Shown one piece after another: positions 7,926 to 20,098 of a stretch of DNA of 64,000 nucleotides (positions are counted from its first letter, which is position 1; each line of letters starts with the position of its first letter). The DNA lies in assembly GCA_945870025.1 (NCBI GenBank), contig CAMBQN010000011.1, forward strand, positions 1 through 64,000, written 5' to 3'. The notes under the pieces were generated by a model. The model worked only from the letters and a program-made list of their open reading frames with translations. It was not told the DNA's origin and did not search any database. This stretch comes from Akkermansia muciniphila. Its GTDB lineage: Bacteria > Verrucomicrobiota > Kiritimatiellia > RFP12 > JAAYNR01. Both the position numbers and the translations under genes were made by a program.

Positions 7926-8078
7926 GATGCTTGCCGATAACGGCAAGCCGCTGTAACCACCCTTCTTACCGCGCGGCGGCCTTATTACTGCGCGTGGCCT
8001 TATTACTGCGCCGGGCCTTATTACTGCGCGGCGGCCTTATTACTGCGCCGGGCCTTATTACTGCGCGGTGGCGTTATC
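7926..8078. repeat. Hairpin/GTAATAA repeat block downstream of transposase gene 1
   Basis: The block begins with a GCTTGCCG/CGGCAAGC hairpin (7929-7948) and the tag CGCTGTAACCACCCTT (7949-7964). Five 18-19-base tandem units TTATTACTGCGC(N)GGCC follow (about 7983-8078), and the last one supplies the stop codon of the transposase. The first 47 bases are repeated at 8998-9044 on the other side of that gene. Confidence 0.75.
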
Positions 8079-8981
8079 GCCGCCGATTCGGGCAGCCAGC
8101 CCGTTCATCTCCAGGCACCGCTCGCGCGTGAGCGCCTCCTTGCGCCCGGTCCAGGCATACGGCGACAGGATGAGCACCCGCCCTTGGGCGCACAGGTCGA
8201 AATAGCGCCCATCCGGCTTGTACAGCGGCCGGAAGCCGCCGCTCTTCAGCACGATCACGCGCGCCTGCGGCATCGCGAGCGCCAGATCGACCATCGCCCG
8301 CTCCCCCGGCGAGATGAACGGCGACACCATCACGGCATCCCGCCGGATCTTCGCCGTCACCTCCTCCCGCATCGCCTCCAGCTCCGCCTCCGTGACGCTC
8401 CGCGACACCCGCACCGCCAGCCGCCACGGCGCCTGTAGCAGGAACGGATTGCCGAACCCGGTCCACGTCCGCCCGTCCGGGAGCGGCGGCAGGCTCGGCG
8501 CCTCCAGCGCCTCGATCCGGGTGAACAGATCGGGATGCGCCCGTTTCAGCCGATAGCGCCTGGGGTTGTCGAGGATGTAGTCGTGATAGGCGTGGATGCT
8601 CGCGGGATTGAGCGCGATCAGATCGTGATAGCCGTCGTCCCAGACGCCGAGACCGGCATCGCCCGTGACCCGTCGCAGCTCGGCGGTCACGCCGCTCTTG
8701 AAGCCGCGCACGATCGCGCCGAGCGGCCGCGGCAGCCGCTCCCGCACATACAGGATGCCGTGCAGGTGATCGGGCATGACGCAGAGCGTCGAGGTCTCGA
8801 TCTGCGGCGTGAAGGCCGGGATGCGCCGCCACGCCTCCAGCACGCGCAGCCCCTCGGGCGAAAGCGCCACCCCCGCCTCCTCGACCCGCCCAAAGAGCGG
8901 CCTCCGCGGCGCGGTCGTGAGCGTGATCAGGTAAAAGCCCACGCCGGTGTAATCGTGCCAGAAGGCCCGCTTGCCCTGCAT
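8058..8981 (-). CDS. IS200/RAYT-like Y1 (HUH) transposase with a C-terminal SLOG/DprA-like domain
   Basis: A 307-residue protein. Residues about 1-165 are a Y1 transposase-like domain: FWHDYTGVGFYLITLTTAPR at the start, the HUH motif PDHLHGILYV near residue 73, and a C-terminal helix with a Tyr-containing YHDYILDNPRRYRL that should carry the nucleophile. Residues about 200-300 (VSPFISPGE, VIVLKSGGF, FDLCAQGRVLILSPY) look like a Rossmann-type SLOG/DprA-like domain; that call is by pattern only. The ATG at 8981 is used because the 17 residues before it (from a GTG at 9032) are the translated flanking repeat. The gene is bracketed by a 47-bp direct repeat and several small hairpins, as expected for a REP-associated transposase acting on its own repeats. 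Confidence 0.75.
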   Translation of the reverse strand: MQGKRAFWHDYTGVGFYLITLTTAPRRPLFGRVEEAGVALSPEGLRVLEAWRRIPAFTPQIETSTLCVMPDHLHGILYVRERLPRPLGAIVRGFKSGVTAELRRVTGDAGLGVWDDGYHDLIALNPASIHAYHDYILDNPRRYRLKRAHPDLFTRIEALEAPSLPPLPDGRTWTGFGNPFLLQAPWRLAVRVSRSVTEAELEAMREEVTAKIRRDAVMVSPFISPGERAMVDLALAMPQARVIVLKSGGFRPLYKPDGRYFDLCAQGRVLILSPYAWTGRKEALTRERCLEMNGLAARIGGDNATAQ

Positions 8982-8997
8982 GCCCCCCTCCTCCCCT

Positions 8998-9125
8998 GAT
9001 GCGGGCCGATAACGGCCCGCCGCTGTAACCACCCTTATTACCGTGTCGTTATCGACACGGTCTCCCCTGCGCGGCGTTATTACCGCGCGGGGCCGTTATT
9101 ACTGCGCGGGGCCGTTATCGGCCCC
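8998..9125. repeat. Hairpin/GTTATCG repeat block upstream of transposase gene 1
   Basis: Four small hairpins share a GTTATCG or GTTATTA loop: GCGGGCCGATAACGGCCCGC (9001-9020), CCGTGTCGTTATCGACACGG (9041-9060), GCGCGGCGTTATTACCGCGC (9069-9088) and GGGGCCGTTATCGGCCCC (9108-9125). The tag CGCTGTAACCACCCTT follows the first. The block overlaps the 3' end of the next minus-strand gene. Confidence 0.75.
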
Positions 9126-13857: not shown

Positions 13858-14130
13858 GGGTTGCTGAAATGCTGAAAAACTGAAATGCTGAAAAGCTGAA
13901 AGGCGCCGAAGAGAAAAGCTGAAATGCTGAAAAACTGAAAAGCTGAAAAGCTGAAAACTGAAAGGCGCCGAAGAGAAAAGCTGAAAAGCTGAAAACTGAA
14001 AGGCTGAAAGGCGCTGAAGAGAAAAGCTGAAAAGCTGAAAACTGAAAGCTGAAAGGCGCTTCGCGCTGACACCATTTGCTATATTCCATTGGCCTTCGGC
14101 GCGGCGGGACGCTGAAGAGAAAAGCTGAAA
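13858..14130. repeat. AAAAGCTG array and truncated REP, left side of repeat island 1
   Basis: The plus strand reads degenerate AAAAGCTG / AAATGCTG / AAAACTG units with GGCGCCGAAGAG punctuation from about 13863 to 14058, then CGCGCTGACACCATTTGC and a truncated REP (GGCGCGGCGGGACGC) that runs straight into GAAGAGAAAAGCTG at 14118. Open frames here encode FQLFSFSAFQ-type peptides and are not genes. Confidence 0.85.
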
Positions 14131-14400
14131 AGCACTTCGCGCTGACACCATTTGCTTTATTCCATTGGCCTGCGGCGCGGCGGGGACGCCGTCGCCCTAC
14201 CCGCTTCGCGCTTTCCCGCATGCACTCACACACTCACGCACTCGCTTCGCGCTTTCCCTTGGGCATTCGCCTTTCTCCTTCGGCGCGGCGGGGACGCCGT
14301 CGCCCTACCTCGCTTCGCGCTTTTCCGGAGCCCTTGCGCGCAGCACCTTTCAGTTTTCAGCTTTTCAGCATTTCAGCTTTTCTCTTCAGCTTTTCGCCTT
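14131..14400. repeat. Two REP copies plus TTTTCAGC array, right side of repeat island 1
   Basis: Two REPs in minus orientation end in CGCCCTAC: 14173-14200 and 14281-14308. Each is followed by CGCTTCGCGCTTTCCC-type sequence. CACACACTCACGCACTC units lie between them. From 14347 a TTTTCAGC array runs toward hicB. Confidence 0.85.
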
Positions 14401-14407
14401 TTTTGAT

Positions 14408-14437
14408 TTACATCACATATCCGCTGCCGCATACTAT
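14408..14437 (+). promoter_or_regulatory. Putative hicBA promoter
   Basis: TTACAT (14408-14413), an 18-base spacer and TACTAT (14432-14437) lie 28 bases before the hicB ATG. The TTTTCAGC array ends just upstream. HicB proteins often repress their own promoter, but no operator is recognised. Confidence 0.45.
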
Positions 14438-14465
14438 TGCGCTGTCATCAAAAAGCGGGGGCGTC

Positions 14466-14669
14466 ATGACCTACACGGCTGTGATCTGCAAAGAGGACGA
14501 GTGGTATGTGGCCGAGTGTCCCGAGACGGGCACCGTCAGCCAGGGGCATACCATTGAAGAGGCGATTGCTAATCTGCGAGAGGCCACAGAGCTTTACGTC
14601 GAGGAGTTCGCCCCACCCGTGAGGCAACCGCCTTTTCTGACGACGTTCGAGGTTCCCGCATATGCCTGA
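14466..14669 (+). CDS. hicB: HicB-family antitoxin
   Basis: A 67-residue protein with the partial RNase H-like HicB fold: TAVICKEDEWYVAECPETG, GHTIEEAIANLREATELYVEE. It is the short type without an added DNA-binding helix-turn-helix that I can see. It should bind and inhibit the HicA toxin encoded directly downstream, whose start overlaps this gene by 8 bases. ATG 14466 is the natural start; longer in-frame starts run back into the repeat array. The pair lies between two REP-rich islands. Confidence 0.85.
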   Translation: MTYTAVICKEDEWYVAECPETGTVSQGHTIEEAIANLREATELYVEEFAPPVRQPPFLTTFEVPAYA

Positions 14670-14886
14670 GCTTCCGCGAATATCGGGAAGCGAGGCGGTT
14701 CGGGTCTTCAAGCGCCTCGGCTTCAGACAGGTTCGCCAGCGTGGAAGTCATGTCGTCTTGCGACGCGGCGCCACAGGATGCACGATTCCTTTGCACAGTT
14801 CGTTGGCCGTGGGCACCTTGCGCGGCGCGTTGCGTCAGGCCGCTGTTTCACCCGAGACGTTTGTTGGGGCATACCTCGAAAAGTGA
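14662..14886 (+). CDS. hicA: HicA-family mRNA interferase toxin
   Basis: A 74-residue protein with a dsRBD-like fold: ISGSEAVRVFKRLGFRQVRQ, then RGSHVVLRR carrying the catalytic His of the GSH motif, then TIPLHSSLAVGTLRGALRQA. It is full length for the family. It overlaps hicB by 8 bases, giving the antitoxin-first order. The toxin would cleave mRNA on ribosomes or free when not bound by HicB. Confidence 0.85.
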   Translation: MPELPRISGSEAVRVFKRLGFRQVRQRGSHVVLRRGATGCTIPLHSSLAVGTLRGALRQAAVSPETFVGAYLEK

Positions 14887-14914
14887 ACGCCGCCGCAGGC
14901 CAATGGGTCAGCGC

Positions 14915-15181
14915 GTTATTGGGTAGGGCGACGGCGTCCCCGCTGAAGAGAAAAGCTGAAATGCTGAAAACTGAAAAGCTGAAAGGCACTGACGCAAGGG
15001 ATCAGGAAAAGCGCGTCAGCGGGTAGGGCGACGGCGTCCCGCCGCGCCGCAGGCCAGCGGAAAAAGGCAAATGGTGTCGGCGCGCAGCGGGTTGTCGTGC
15101 TTCCGCGCTTTCCCTTGGGCATTCGCCATTCTCCTTCGGCGCGGCGGGGACGCCGCCGCCCTACCTCGCTTCGCGCATTCC
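14915..15181. repeat. REP copies and AAAAGCTG array, left part of repeat island 2
   Basis: A plus-orientation half REP at 14923 (GTAGGGCGACGGCGTCCC) breaks in the loop and runs into GCTGAAGAGAAAAGCTG. After a short array comes a full REP at 15023 with its flank GCAGGCCAGCGGAAAA and GCAAATGGTGTCGGCGCG. A minus-orientation REP spans 15137-15163. Confidence 0.85.
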
Positions 15182-15705
15182 CTTTCTCCTTCGGCGCGGC
15201 GGGGACGCCGAAGAGAAAAGCTGAAATGCTGAAAACTGAAAAGCTGAAAGGCGCTGCGCGCTTTTACCCACACACCCACACACGCATTCCCTCACACACC
15301 CGCTTCGCGCATTCCCTGTTTCTTTCGGCGCGGCGGGACGCCGCCGCCCTACCTCGCTTCGCGCATTTCCTGTTCCATCAGGGCGAAGCAATCGGGATAG
15401 CGGCGCGAGCCTCTCGTCCTCGTCGTCGTCCTCGTCCTCGTCCTCGAATCGTGAAATCGAGAACGAGGACGAGCGCGAAGCGAGGTAGGGCGACGGCGTC
15501 CCCGCCGCGCCGCAGGCCAGCGGAAAAGCAAATGGGTCGGCGCGAAGCGGGTTGTCGGGCTTTCGCGCATTCCCTTGGGCATTCGTCATTCTCCTTCGGC
15601 GCGGCGGGGACGCCGTCGCCCTACCCGCTCCGCGCGTTCCTTTTTTCTTTCGGCGCGGCGACTTTCAGCTTTTCAGCTTTTCAGCATTTCAGCTTTTCTC
15701 TTCAG
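15182..15705. repeat. 0.52-kb direct repeat, copy A (left flank of RAYT 2)
   Basis: This block is near-identical to 16526-17045. In order it holds a truncated REP joined to an AAAAGCTG array, ACACACCC/GCATTCCC units, a minus REP (15327-15352), a CTCGTCCTCG palindrome (about 15415-15472), a plus REP (15485), a minus REP (15599-15624), a truncated REP (15650) and a TTTTCAGC array. It lies 57 bases upstream of the RAYT gene. Confidence 0.85.
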
Positions 15706-15727
15706 CTTTTCTCTTCAGCTTTCCGCC

Positions 15728-15756
15728 TTGCGCAAACGTTTCAAACACAGTACTGT
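15728..15756 (+). promoter_or_regulatory. Putative promoter of RAYT 2
   Basis: TTGCGC (15728-15733), a 17-base spacer and TACTGT (15751-15756) end 6 bases before the ATG. Transcription would start at about the A of ATG, giving a leaderless mRNA (inference). The TTTTCAGC array ends immediately upstream of the -35 box. Confidence 0.5.
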
Positions 15757-15762
15757 TTTCTC

Positions 15763-16209
15763 ATGAACGCATTGCCCTTCGCGCAGCGAAAAATGCTGCC
15801 GCATCAGGTTCCGTCATGGGTCGGACAAGGCGCCCGGCATTTCGTGACGATCAACGCGCGTGATCGCGCCGCCGAGCCCTTCGCCGCGCCTGCGGTTGCC
15901 GGCGTCCTGTTGGAAAATCTGCGGGCCTATGAGACGCTGGGCAAATGGCACATCTGGGTCGCGGTTATCATGCCGGATCATCTGCATTTCATCGCCACGT
16001 TCAATCTGGACGATGCGATTCACCAGACGGTCACCGCCTGGAAGCGGTATCAGACCCGGACGCTCACGATTCAGTTTCAACGCGACTATTTTGAGCATCG
16101 CTTGCGGAACGAGGATGAGTTTGTGGAAAAGATGACCTACATCCGGGAAAACCCCGTACGCAAGCAGCTTGTGAAATCGTCCGCCGACTATCCGTACATC
16201 ATCGGGTAG
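15763..16209 (+). CDS. REP-associated tyrosine transposase (RAYT, Y1/HUH family)
   Basis: A 148-residue protein, full length for a compact RAYT. It shows the N-terminal beta strand GARHFVTINARDR, the HUH motif MPDHLHFIATF (near residue 72), and the C-terminal helix MTYIRENPVRKQLV with the expected catalytic Tyr. In the family it nicks and joins single-stranded REP hairpins next to a GTAG tetranucleotide. Here it is embedded in dozens of GTAG-hairpin copies and lies between two 0.52-kb direct repeats. Only one ATG (15763) gives a sensible start; the upstream frame is translated repeat. Confidence 0.88.
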   Translation: MNALPFAQRKMLPHQVPSWVGQGARHFVTINARDRAAEPFAAPAVAGVLLENLRAYETLGKWHIWVAVIMPDHLHFIATFNLDDAIHQTVTAWKRYQTRTLTIQFQRDYFEHRLRNEDEFVEKMTYIRENPVRKQLVKSSADYPYIIG

Positions 16210-16244
16210 ACGGCCACTGATAAAAGGCAACCGGTGTCAGCGCG

Positions 16245-16525
16245 TTATTGGGTAGGGCGACGGCGTCCCCGCCGAAGAGAAAAGCTGAAAGCTGAAAGGC
16301 GAAAAGCTGAAAGGCGCTGACGCAAGGGATCAGGAAAAGCGCGTCAGCGGGTAGGGCGACGGCGTCCCCGCCGCGCCGCAGGCCAGCGGAAAAAAGCAAT
16401 CGGTGTCGGCGCGTCAGCGGGTAGGGCGACGGCGTCCCCGCCGCGCCGCAGGCCAGCGGAAAAAGGCAATCGGTGTCAGCGCGCAGCACGAGGTAGGGCT
16501 TCCGCGCTTTCCCTTGCGCATTCGT
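16245..16525. repeat. Tandem REP units, left part of repeat island 3
   Basis: A half REP at 16252 is joined to GAAGAGAAAAGCTG. Full REPs follow at 16351 and 16421, exactly 70 bases apart, with a decayed third unit at 16492 (GTAGGGCTTCCGCGC). The 70-base unit is REP hairpin, GCAGGCCAGCGGAAAA, and GCAATCGGTGTC(A/G)GCGCG. Confidence 0.88.
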
Positions 16526-17045
16526 CTTTCTCCTTCGGCGCGGCGGGGACGCCGAAGAGAAAAGCTGAAATGCTGAAAACTGAAAAGCTGAAAGGCGCTT
16601 CGCGCTTTTCCTCACACACCCACACACGCATTCCCTCACACACCCGCTTCGCGCATTCCCTGTTTCTTTCGGCGCGGCGGGACGCCGCCGCCCTACCTCG
16701 CTTCGCGCATTTTTTGTTCCATCAGGGCGAAGCAATCGGGATAGCGGCGCGAGCCTCTCGTCCTCGTCGTCGTCCTCGTCCTCGAATCGTGAAATCGAGA
16801 ACGAGGACGAGCGCGAAGCGAGGTAGGGCGACGGCGTCCCCGCCGCGCCGCAGGCCAGCGGAAAAGCAAATGGTGTCGGCGCGTCAGCGGGTTGTCGGGC
16901 TTTCGCGCATTCCCTTGGGCATTCGTCATTCTCCTTCGGCGCGGCGGGGACGCCGTCGCCCTACCCGCTCCGCGCATTCCTTTTTTCTTTCGGCGCGGCG
17001 ACTTTCAGCTTTTCAGCTTTTCAGCATTTCAGCTTTTCTCTTCAG
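16526..17045. repeat. 0.52-kb direct repeat, copy B (right flank of RAYT 2)
   Basis: Same order of parts as 15182-15705: truncated REP plus array, ACACACCC units, minus REP (16671-16695), CTCGTCCTCG palindrome (about 16757-16815, six bases shorter than in copy A), plus REP (16823), minus REP (16939-16964), truncated REP (16994) and TTTTCAGC array. A further array follows to 17095. Confidence 0.85.
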
Positions 17046-17132
17046 AGCACTTTTCAGCTTTTCAGCATTTCAGCATTTCAGCTTTTCTCTTCAGCCCCCT
17101 TTCTCCCTCCGGCTTCTTTCCGAAAAAAACCC

Positions 17133-17162
17133 TTGCGCACGGGCGTACCAAAAGCATACCAT
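17133..17162 (+). promoter_or_regulatory. Putative promoter of the large secreted-protein gene
   Basis: TTGCGC (17133-17138), an 18-base spacer and TACCAT (17157-17162). As at RAYT 2, a TTGCGC box lies shortly after the end of a TTTTCAGC array, here 38 bases downstream. The leader to ATG 17234 would be about 65 bases. Confidence 0.35.
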
Positions 17163-17233
17163 TTTCACAAACAAGTGCGGCTCGGGCCCCGCGCGGCGTG
17201 CGTGGAGGCCGTTCACACGAGCGGAGGTGCGAC

Positions 17234-19423
17234 ATGACGGTGAAACGTTTATGTTCGGCGACGGCTTGGGTGCTGGCGGCGCTGACCGTGCTGCCGCCGC
17301 TGACGGCACAGGCGCAGACCATCTCCTGGAACTTCGGCACCAATGCCGCCCCGAGCGCCTCCCCTTCCTCCCTTTCGGCCACACACGTCACCGCCGGATG
17401 CCTCACCAATGGCAATGCCGGCTCGTCCGTGCTTCTGACCAACTCATCCGCTTCCAGCGGTTACTCCGGCGCGTCGGGGAGCTACAACGCCTGCGCCACC
17501 GCCAAAACCGGCGCGCTGTCTGTCGCCAACAGCTCCTATTTCACCTTCACCCTCACGCCCGATGCCACCAACACCCTGCGCGTGACGGGCCTCTCCTTCG
17601 GCAGCCGCAGCACCGCGACCGGCCCGCTGGCGTTTTGCGTGCGCTCCAGCCTCGACGATTACGCCGCCGATCTGGCGGCCGGGACGCTCGTAAACAACGA
17701 GAAATGGGCGCTGAAACGTGTCACGTTCGCCGCGTTCTCGCAGACGCCAGCCACGTCGATGACCCTGCGCATCTATGGGTATCATGGCACCGGTACTGCG
17801 GGCACCGGCAACTGGCGGATTGATGATCTGGCCGTGGCGGTGTCTGCCGCCGGGACGAACACGCCGCCGGTGGTCCTGCCCATCGGATCCCAGACCGGGC
17901 GGGTCGATTCGGTGTTGAGCTTTCCCCTGATCATCGGCGCGACCGACGGTGATCCAGTGACCGCGACCAATGTCACGGCTTCGGCAGGCGTCGTCGGCGC
18001 GTTCGGTCTGACCAACGGCGTTTTCACTTACACGCCCGTCGAAGCGGATCTGGGCGAGCGGACCTTCACCTTTACTGCGGCAGACACGAATGGCACGAGC
18101 GAATCGATGGAGGTGCACGTGTTTGTGCAGCAGACGCAGACGCTGGCGGTGGAGATGACAAGCGTGACGGGCACTCATACCCAAAACTTCAACACGCTGG
18201 CCTCCTCCAGCACGCTCGGATGGACGAATGCCGTCGCGCCGCTTCCATCGTGGTATGCGTATGCCGGCACCACGGCCGTGACGAACTACCGGACCGCCTC
18301 CTCGACAACCGGCGGCCTCTATTCCTACGGCACGAACGCCGAAGATCGGTCTCTGGGATCACTCGCATCGGATGACAAGACCTACCGCTTCGGCATCGCC
18401 TTCACCAACACCACGGGGCAGACCGTGACCCATCTGACGATCAACTTCACGGCGGAGCAGTGGTGGGTGGGGAAAAGCGCGGCGACCAACACCCTCTCCT
18501 TTCACTATTGCATCACCAACGGCGTGCTGCCGCTGAGCGACACGGCGGAATGGCGTCCGGTTGCGGCGCTGGACACCGACTCGCCGCTGACGACCAACAC
18601 GCAAGACGACGGTGCCTGCTACGTATCGGCGGCGCGGAGCGCTGCAATCACCCGATATCCGATCCTGCCCGGAGAGGTGCTTCTGCTCCGCTGGAGCGAT
18701 CCCAACGATCCGGGCGGTGATCACGGCTTAGGCATCGACGATCTAACGGTGGGATGGGCGGCGGGCGATTTGCAAGATTCGGTTGCCGTGGGGCGGACGG
18801 GGGCGTCGGAAGATTTTAACGAGATGGGGCGCGCCGCGCCGGCGACACTCGTCTGGGCGTGGCGGACGGAGACGAACGGCCCGTATGCGTCGGCGGGCAC
18901 GCGCGCGCTGCGGGCCAATACGACGACGAATGTGACGCAAGCCGGAACGTACGTTTTCACGGGGCAAGGGCTGGGCGATCAGGCGATTGGCGGGCTGCCG
19001 TGCAGCAATGCCGCCGCGACCGTGACGGTGTACGGAAAATTCCGCAACACGACGGGAGAACCGATCCGGCGCTGGCGGGTCCGATACGCCGTCGAGAAAT
19101 ACCGCAACGGCACGGCGTCCACGGCGGTTCAGTTGCGGGTGTCGGCCGATGACAAGTCTTGGCGCACGGCTGGCGATCCGGTCGTGTTTGCGGCCGATGG
19201 CGACACGGCGGGGGCCGCGGCGGGGGCGGGTCCGCTGGCGACGAACCGAGTGGACCGCGAAGCGGCATTGGATGCGGCGATCCCGGAGTGCGGCCTCTTT
19301 TATCTGGCTTGGCAGATCGCGGTCACGGAGGGTCAGAGTGTGATCGGGGCGCAGGCGCTGGGGATAGACGAGGTTCGGATTGAGCCGATGTATTCAACTG
19401 GAACGGTGCTGATGGTGAGGTGA
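17234..19423 (+). CDS. Large secreted beta-rich protein with a cadherin-like repeat
   Basis: A 729-residue protein with a signal peptide (MTVKRLCSATAWVLAALTVL ... AQAQ). Residues about 25-210 look like a lectin/jelly-roll-like domain ending RIDDLAVAVSA. Residues about 215-300 form an Ig/cadherin-like repeat (NTPPVVLPIGSQTG ... TFTFTAADTNGTSESMEVHVF). Two similar beta domains follow, each ending in a GIDDL/GIDEVRIEP motif. There is no PEP-CTERM tail or clear anchor, so the protein is probably released or T9/T2-type exported (inference). Both flanks are repeat islands. Start chosen by the signal peptide; AGGTG lies upstream. Confidence 0.75.
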   Translation: MTVKRLCSATAWVLAALTVLPPLTAQAQTISWNFGTNAAPSASPSSLSATHVTAGCLTNGNAGSSVLLTNSSASSGYSGASGSYNACATAKTGALSVANSSYFTFTLTPDATNTLRVTGLSFGSRSTATGPLAFCVRSSLDDYAADLAAGTLVNNEKWALKRVTFAAFSQTPATSMTLRIYGYHGTGTAGTGNWRIDDLAVAVSAAGTNTPPVVLPIGSQTGRVDSVLSFPLIIGATDGDPVTATNVTASAGVVGAFGLTNGVFTYTPVEADLGERTFTFTAADTNGTSESMEVHVFVQQTQTLAVEMTSVTGTHTQNFNTLASSSTLGWTNAVAPLPSWYAYAGTTAVTNYRTASSTTGGLYSYGTNAEDRSLGSLASDDKTYRFGIAFTNTTGQTVTHLTINFTAEQWWVGKSAATNTLSFHYCITNGVLPLSDTAEWRPVAALDTDSPLTTNTQDDGACYVSAARSAAITRYPILPGEVLLLRWSDPNDPGGDHGLGIDDLTVGWAAGDLQDSVAVGRTGASEDFNEMGRAAPATLVWAWRTETNGPYASAGTRALRANTTTNVTQAGTYVFTGQGLGDQAIGGLPCSNAAATVTVYGKFRNTTGEPIRRWRVRYAVEKYRNGTASTAVQLRVSADDKSWRTAGDPVVFAADGDTAGAAAGAGPLATNRVDREAALDAAIPECGLFYLAWQIAVTEGQSVIGAQALGIDEVRIEPMYSTGTVLMVR

Positions 19424-19427
19424 TCGG

Positions 19428-20098
19428 TGGAGAAAAGCTGAAGAGAAATGCTGAAGAGAAAAGCTGAAATGCTGAAAACTGAAAAGCTGAAGAGAAATGC
19501 TGAAAAGCTGAAATGCTGAAATGCTGAAAGGCGCTTCGCGCTTTTCCTCACACACCCACACACGCATTCCCTCACACACTCACTCCGCGCTTTCCCTTTC
19601 TCCTTCGGCGCGGCGGGGACGCCGTCGCCCTCGCTCCGCGCTTTTTCCGCACACACCCACGCACCCACACACTCGCTTTCGCGCTTTCCCTTGGGCATTC
19701 GCCTTTCTCCTGCGGCGCGGCGGGGACGCCGCCGCCCTACCTCGCTTCGCGCTTTCACAGCACACACGCCCACACACACCCACACACTCGCTTCGCGCTT
19801 TCCCTTGGGCATTCGCCTTTCTCCTGCGGCGCGGCGGGACGCCGCCGCCCTACCCGCTTCGCGCTTTTCCTGATCCCTTGCGCGCAGCGCCTTTCAGTTT
19901 TCAGCATTTCAGTTTTCAGCATTTCAGCTTTTCAGCTTTTCTCTTCAGCGGGGACGCCGCCGCCCTACCTCGCTTCGCGCTTTCCCTTATCCCTTGCGTC
20001 AGCACTTTTCAGTTTTCAGCTTTTCTCTTCGGCCTTTCAGCTTTTCAGTTTTCAGCATTTCAGCTTTTCTCTTCTGCTTTTCTCTTCTGCGCATTCCC
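19428..20098. repeat. Repeat island 4: inverted arrays enclosing minus-orientation REPs
   Basis: It begins with an AAAAGCTG array (19433-19530), then ACACACCC units, and minus-orientation REPs at about 19607-19630 (lacking the terminal CTAC), 19713-19740 and 19827-19853, plus a REP cut at 19949. It ends with TTTTCAGC arrays up to 20090. Long open frames on both strands are translated repeat, not genes. Confidence 0.85.

Follow-up and report, generated by a model that had tools for sequence, protein, structure and literature searches.

A RAYT gene amid GTAG-tagged, bulged REP hairpins in a genome of the Kiritimatiellae

Known REP/RAYT systems and the present locus

The recognition of repetitive extragenic palindromes (REPs) has been dissected in three gammaproteobacterial systems (PMC8266576). 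GTAG-tagged REPs were already reported in 2013 from two bacteria of the Planctomycetes-Verrucomicrobia-Chlamydiae (PVC) superphylum, Opitutus terrae and Rhodopirellula baltica (PMC3733652). Here we describe a REP-associated tyrosine transposase (RAYT) gene surrounded by copies of a short GTAG-tagged hairpin (hereafter, REP1) in positions 1 to 64,000 of contig CAMBQN010000011.1 (assembly GCA_945870025.1; hereafter, the window). An original prediction, made from the letters of the window, proposed a working REP/RAYT system of a kind little described in this phylum. The latter point has to be narrowed, GTAG REPs being known from O. terrae and R. baltica, and it appears to stand for the Kiritimatiellae: one literature search turned up nothing on REPs of this group, and PMC3733652 names no Kiritimatiellae or Lentisphaerae.

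The O. terrae and R. baltica REPtrons resemble the present locus in superphylum, in the GTAG tag of the repeats and in the presence of several families per genome, and differ in genus and in REP sequence. A mapping of REP class on a RAYT tree was not found in the parts of that survey that were consulted. The E. coli TnpAREP/REP system (Bertels group 2, subclass 2.2; 4er8; PMC8266576) shares with it the fold, the active site, the GTAG tag, an irregular stem zone in the hairpin and REPs flanking the gene. However, the hairpin here is shorter than the E. coli REP and, in place of mid-stem AA/GC mismatches, has one purine that bulges out 3-4 bp up from the foot; the E. coli Y motif is YI-NP (YIYINP), that of the window YIRENP. 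Group 3 TnpAREP (subclass 2.5; Stenotrophomonas, Pseudomonas, Marinomonas) has short REPs and the DHLH and WQ motifs found in relatives of the window RAYT, but its REPs are generally perfect palindromes, whereas the stem is bulged here and has tandem G-A or single mismatches in the relatives. REP1 is short like group 3 and irregular like group 2, and is therefore filed under neither the long bulged nor the short perfect REPs (PMC8266576); likewise, the combination DHLH / [WF]Q / YIRxNP fits no single subclass in Table 1 of PMC6006769. As in REPINs (REP doublets forming hairpins; PMC3116915), inverted REP pairs with outer GTAG occur, of about 142 bp for REP1 and about 61 bp for a second family, REP2, but with many single copies as well and few doublets per genome.

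Apart from the group label, each of the features tested places the locus among the RAYT/REP systems. With a probability of about 0.88, we consider it a REPtron, that is, a domesticated single-copy HuH/Y1 nuclease gene (the RAYT) amid cognate GTAG-tagged REP hairpins, some in REPIN-like doublets, whose product would bind and cut single-stranded REP and help to spread the copies. On single-stranded DNA, the RAYT would most likely bind GTAG and the folded hairpin of one strand, read the unpaired purine above the hairpin foot and cut next to the REP through Y126, and this cutting may help REP copies to spread or rearrange. The type of system is known. Its occurrence in this lineage, the short hairpin with a bulge, and the matching of RAYT and hairpin lineage by lineage are new.

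The RAYT gene and its REP1 hairpins

15763..16209, plus strand: RAYT gene, 148 aa; NF047646; HuH H73/H75; candidate catalytic Y126

The RAYT scored 87.2 bits against NF047646 (REP-associated tyrosine transposase; curated cut-off 80), and a profile from 45 relatives matched E. coli TnpAREP (PDB 4er8, 5e-18). Its structure model (predicted local distance difference test, pLDDT, 89.5) had 4er8, the TnpAREP-REP complex, as the top Foldseek match (E 2.1e-9, template modelling score 0.73, root-mean-square deviation 2.1 A). The motifs DHLH (72-75) and YIRENP (126-131) are invariant or nearly so among the 45 relatives, and Q106, E111, H112 and R115 align with 4er8 Q95, E100, H101 and R104, the GTAG-contact region of TnpAREP (PMC6006769). 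The position of E. coli W94 is F105 in the window RAYT and W in nearly all relatives. The RAYT predicted at 15763-16209 is thus supported by family model, fold, and catalytic and GTAG-contact residues. No relative was found in the viral contigs searched.

The gene has one copy in this genome (G000). In a sister species of the same genus (G001), an ortholog with 89% identity lies in the same place, with REPs on both flanks as in G000. The dN/dS (ratio of nonsynonymous to synonymous substitution rates) between the two is 0.159, versus 0.56 for the comparable part of the next gene, and the RAYT is, by this comparison, under purifying selection and vertically kept.

REP1 has the consensus GTAG+GGC[GA/GG/AG]CGGCG-TCC(C)-CGCCGCGCC, a hairpin of 22-23 nt with one unpaired purine and, as in GTAG REPs, the tag directly 5' of it. 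After GTAGGGC, three spellings (GA, GG and AG) occur, all with one unpaired purine, which in AG lies one base away from its place in GA, and some copies have the loop TCC instead of TCCC. Folded as single-stranded DNA, the unit reached -12 kcal/mol with the A bulged, and the AG variant was equally stable with the bulge one base lower; one half copy that was folded formed no hairpin. Rfam gave only sub-threshold microRNA and small nucleolar RNA matches to the repeats, judged to be chance. The window holds 14 complete and three 5'-half copies, plus other fragments, and the 18-mer GGTAGGGCGACGGCGTCC (up to 3 mismatches) matched it 18 times, versus a mean of 0.19 and a maximum of 2 in shuffles.

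14171..14202, minus strand: complete REP1
14279..14310, minus strand: complete REP1
14923..14942, plus strand: REP1 5' half, octamer array attached
15021..15051, plus strand: complete REP1, left member of doublet
15135..15166, minus strand: complete REP1, right member of doublet
15324..15354, minus strand: complete REP1
15483..15514, plus strand: complete REP1, left member of doublet
15595..15626, minus strand: complete REP1, right member of doublet
16252..16273, plus strand: REP1 5' half, octamer array attached
16349..16380, plus strand: complete REP1
16419..16450, plus strand: complete REP1, 70 bp past the preceding REP1
16668..16698, minus strand: complete REP1
16821..16852, plus strand: complete REP1, left member of doublet
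16935..16966, minus strand: complete REP1, right member of doublet
19711..19742, minus strand: complete REP1
19825..19855, minus strand: complete REP1
19948..19968, minus strand: REP1 5' half, octamer array attached

The predicted layout of GTAG plus a bulged hairpin was borne out almost to the letter. The plus-orientation copies placed at 15023, 15485, 16351, 16421 and 16823 and the minus-orientation copies ending at about 14200, 14308, 15164, 15352, 15624, 16696, 16964, 19740 and 19853 are all present and complete. Among those called truncated or decayed, the copies at 14923, 16252 and 19948-19968 (minus strand) are 5' halves and the others are remnants; remnants lie at about 14091, 15186, 15654, 16493, 16530, 16993 and 19600. 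Three doublets of 140-142 bp have the opposed REPs and outer GTAG of REPINs. Beyond what had been predicted, the repeat block is also a mosaic of longer duplications, including an 851-column direct repeat (14907-15729 versus 16236-17077, 89% identical). In the half copies, the REP sequence always gives way at one and the same point to an octamer array of the CTGAAAAG type.

15023..15164: REPIN-like doublet, two opposed REP1 copies, GTAG outermost at both ends, span 142
15485-15624: further REPIN-like doublet, span 140
16823-16964: further REPIN-like doublet, span 142
14907..15729, plus strand: direct repeat, left copy; the RAYT lies between the copies
16236..17077, plus strand: direct repeat, right copy

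To profile REP1 across genomes, we used G000, G001 and 93 others of the presumed order. The core GTAGGGCRRCGGCG was found 42 times in G000, 57 times in G001 and 0-4 times in the remaining 93 genomes, counts similar to those of the reversed control, and a covariance model counted 34, 48 and 0, respectively. Copies are therefore present outside the locus and in both RAYT-bearing genomes, and exact REP1 is not equally common without the RAYT, the covariance model finding none in the 93 genomes that lack this RAYT. Outside the window cluster lie 25 of the 42 G000 cores, one of them a chance match; G000:C3:2211 was rejected as a REP1 copy, its core match being conserved inside alignable sequence in G001. 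For complete dispersed copies, flank identity has dropped almost to background about 20 bp away from the REP in either direction, which indicates a shared unit of about REP size. At G000:C16:40128, a REP-bearing gap of 276 bp corresponds to a REP-free gap of 71 bp in G001 between flanks that are 85% and 92% identical, and this REP1 is, judged from the alignment, a lineage-specific gain or loss.

Hairpins beside related RAYT genes

A RAYT alignment scan of named genomes gave at least 534 relatives, 80 of which were kept for analysis; by their titles, nearly all are from Verrucomicrobia, Kiritimatiellae or Lentisphaerae. In a tag-free scan of their flanks, GTAG was by far the commonest tetramer preceding a hairpin. 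A hairpin of -8 kcal/mol or lower followed 28% of the GTAGs in RAYT flanks, 0.9% of other tetramers and, as an outer control, 2.5% of GTAGs located 1-1.9 kb away (7.8% at the loosest cut-off). A fixed layout, in which GTAG is followed by two 9-nt arms around a loop of 3-4 nt, had 288 matches at 73 of the 80 RAYT loci, and decoy tetramers had 9-28. In a set of 38 distinct hairpins, pairing was seen in 93% of stem cells, a percentage that is partly by construction because they were chosen as hairpins. That choice does not account for how varied the pair types are, and stem covariation was 0.688, versus 0.158 for shuffled stems and a maximum of 0.125 with partners slid. Unpaired cells occur at pairs 4, 5 and 7 only.

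The hairpins of the relatives fall into perfect, single-mismatch, tandem G-A and bulge classes. Mapped on the RAYT tree, which was built from few columns and leaves many forks open, hairpin class required 10 changes, and shuffled labels required 28.6 +/- 1.6. REP distance was correlated with RAYT distance (rho 0.31), with 0 of 2000 permutations as high. The comparison shows that each RAYT lineage in the phylum carries its own hairpin version. The window RAYT belongs to a supported clade of 15 rows, in which the remaining REPs have the form GTAG-GGC-GA-NNNN-TCC(C)-NNNN-GA-GCC, except one with a single mismatch; the window hairpin (GGC-GAC-GGCG-TCCC-CGCC-GC-GCC) may derive from this form by conversion of the tandem G-A into a bulge. 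The nearest relatives (L101-L108) had seemed REP-less in a strict-energy flank scan because tandem G-A internal loops fell below the energy cut-off, and that reading was rejected.

The pairing of REP and RAYT that the original prediction drew from one locus thus gains from family, fold, catalytic and GTAG-contact residues, dispersed copies and the co-occurrence of REP and RAYT in both species, and from 73 of 80 related RAYT genes being arranged alike. Co-occurrence as such held for exact REP1 in the two species, and failed for the wider tandem G-A class, which is also found without the RAYT.

Tentatively, and at slightly less than even odds, we propose that the RAYTs of Verrucomicrobiota and Kiritimatiellae use one fixed frame (GTAG, 9-nt arm, 3-4-nt loop, 9-nt arm), in which the stem letters and an irregularity co-evolving with the RAYT (none, 7th pair, 4th-5th pair G-A/G-A, or bulge) would set specificity. 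If so, the clade is a natural mutational series for reading the recognition code. The collection bears on REP recognition by RAYTs and on the origin of new REP families. It comprises about 75 natural RAYT-REP pairs of one layout, whose stems and irregularities differ in step with the enzyme tree and which form ready cognate and non-cognate sets for cleavage assays. It also suggests that the published split into long bulged (group 2) and short perfect (group 3) REPs fails to carry over to this phylum.

Alternative explanations and other repeats of the genome

Several observations weigh against a RAYT that spreads REP1. Both REP1-positive genomes belong to one genus, the only one from which exact REP1 is known, and so represent one independent lineage only; copies per genome are few or modest by REP standards. 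Some dispersed sites have longer mosaic flanks in common, so that part of the spread may be via larger mosaic units. Tandem G-A REPs are abundant in several genomes without a detected RAYT of this subfamily (G006, 93% complete, has 37), and comparing this class with the subfamily by eye over the 95 genomes revealed no co-occurrence; REPs may thus outlive or separate from their RAYT, or the RAYT may have been lost in fragmented assemblies. These REPs and flanks, the 89% identical direct repeat with many smaller ones in the cluster, and the half copies fused to octamer arrays would fit fossil REPs that are now moved mainly by homologous recombination, slippage and mosaic intergenic duplication, the RAYT being kept for another domesticated function. 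We regard this as possible but unlikely, given that dispersed copies have little beyond the REP in common, that C16:40128 differs between the two species and that hairpin class tracks the RAYT tree. The REPtron is accordingly preferred: its RAYT presumably binds and cuts REP, its copies probably owe their spread to this RAYT and not to recombining mosaic units of larger size, and in that sense the system is likely a working one, as predicted.

Enterobacterial REPs serve as terminators, mRNA ends and gyrase or IHF sites, and such roles are possible for any GC-rich intergenic hairpins. That the hairpins here are selected mainly as host RNA or DNA structures, with the nearness of the RAYT incidental, is nevertheless improbable in view of the strict GTAG tag, the strand asymmetry, the clustering at RAYT genes and the low outer-flank control. 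It is more improbable still that REP1 travels inside some larger transposable element. Most dispersed REP2 copies do appear to do so, nearly all of those examined away from the REP2 RAYT lying between 26-bp terminal inverted repeats (GGGCGCATCCCCGTTTCACTGACCTG), but the background-level flanks of REP1 beyond about 20 bp mean that most of its copies share no element ends, which largely refutes this idea. A distant, below-cut-off Y1_Tnp match, and the distant similarity of the RAYT profile and fold to IS200/IS605 structures, could point to an ordinary IS200/IS605 transposase with the hairpins as its subterminal ends. We give this almost no credence: the Y motif is Y---N (YIRENP) and not Y---Q and the gene is present once, grounds on which IS200/IS605 membership was rejected, and the hairpins are numerous, with many at a great distance from any transposase.

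A longer and more distant RAYT-like protein is encoded at 8058-9032 (324 aa; NF047646 1e-11, below cut-off). It has no family of GTAG hairpins in its vicinity, and the more distant RAYT-like genes of the genome (on C1, C2, C11:8547, C25 and C47) are likewise without a repeated GTAG hairpin close by. Octamer arrays (CTGAAAAG, CTGAAATG and relatives) occupy 13858-14060, 14345-14395, 14941-14985, 15207-15250, 15662-15725, 16274-16320, 16551-16596, 17003-17095, 19430-19535, 19890-19950 and 20014-20090; they start after the loop-proximal CGCC of the REP hairpin, on either REP strand, also in G001. A 17-mer, GAAGAGAAAAGCTGAAA, occurs 33 times in the genome versus 0 for its reverse. A longer inverted repeat (CTCGTCCTCGTC... 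/ ...GAACGAGGACGAG around AATCGTGAAATCGA) lies beside REPs twice (15418-15485 and 16756-16823), and a HicB-like / HicA toxin-antitoxin pair (14466-14889; HicA PF07927, E 9e-14) lies within the repeat cluster.

A second RAYT (NF047646, below cut-off; L317:3794-4695, that is, G000:C9 about 85,790-86,690) is kept in the sister species (G001 L298:12253-13249) and is flanked by nine REP2 copies (GT[AG]G + CGGGACGTATCGGACCG core), whose pairs form the REPINs of about 61 bp with GTAG and GTGG ends. The 42 REP2 copies were rejected as a sign of second-RAYT activity for most dispersed copies examined, because most of these sit in the small element with the GGGCGCATCCCCGTTTCACTGACCTG inverted repeats (L194:925-1240; L328:5150-5355; L327, L329, L330, L181-L185). 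One site, L194:1034, is empty in the sister species, and REP2 seems to have hitch-hiked on a miniature inverted-repeat transposable element. A third family, REP3 (GTAG-ACGCGACG-TCCC-CGTCGCGT), has 8 genome copies and adjoins a dispersed REP1 at L319:5000-5080 (G000:C16:40005-40075), beside which there seems to be a putative REP1/REP3 hybrid. Some RAYT frames of other genomes (L044 and L047, genes of G054 and G029) extend into REPs, and the REP sequence is then translated as repetitive peptide tails, e.g., GETALP...GRDGSPSRP.

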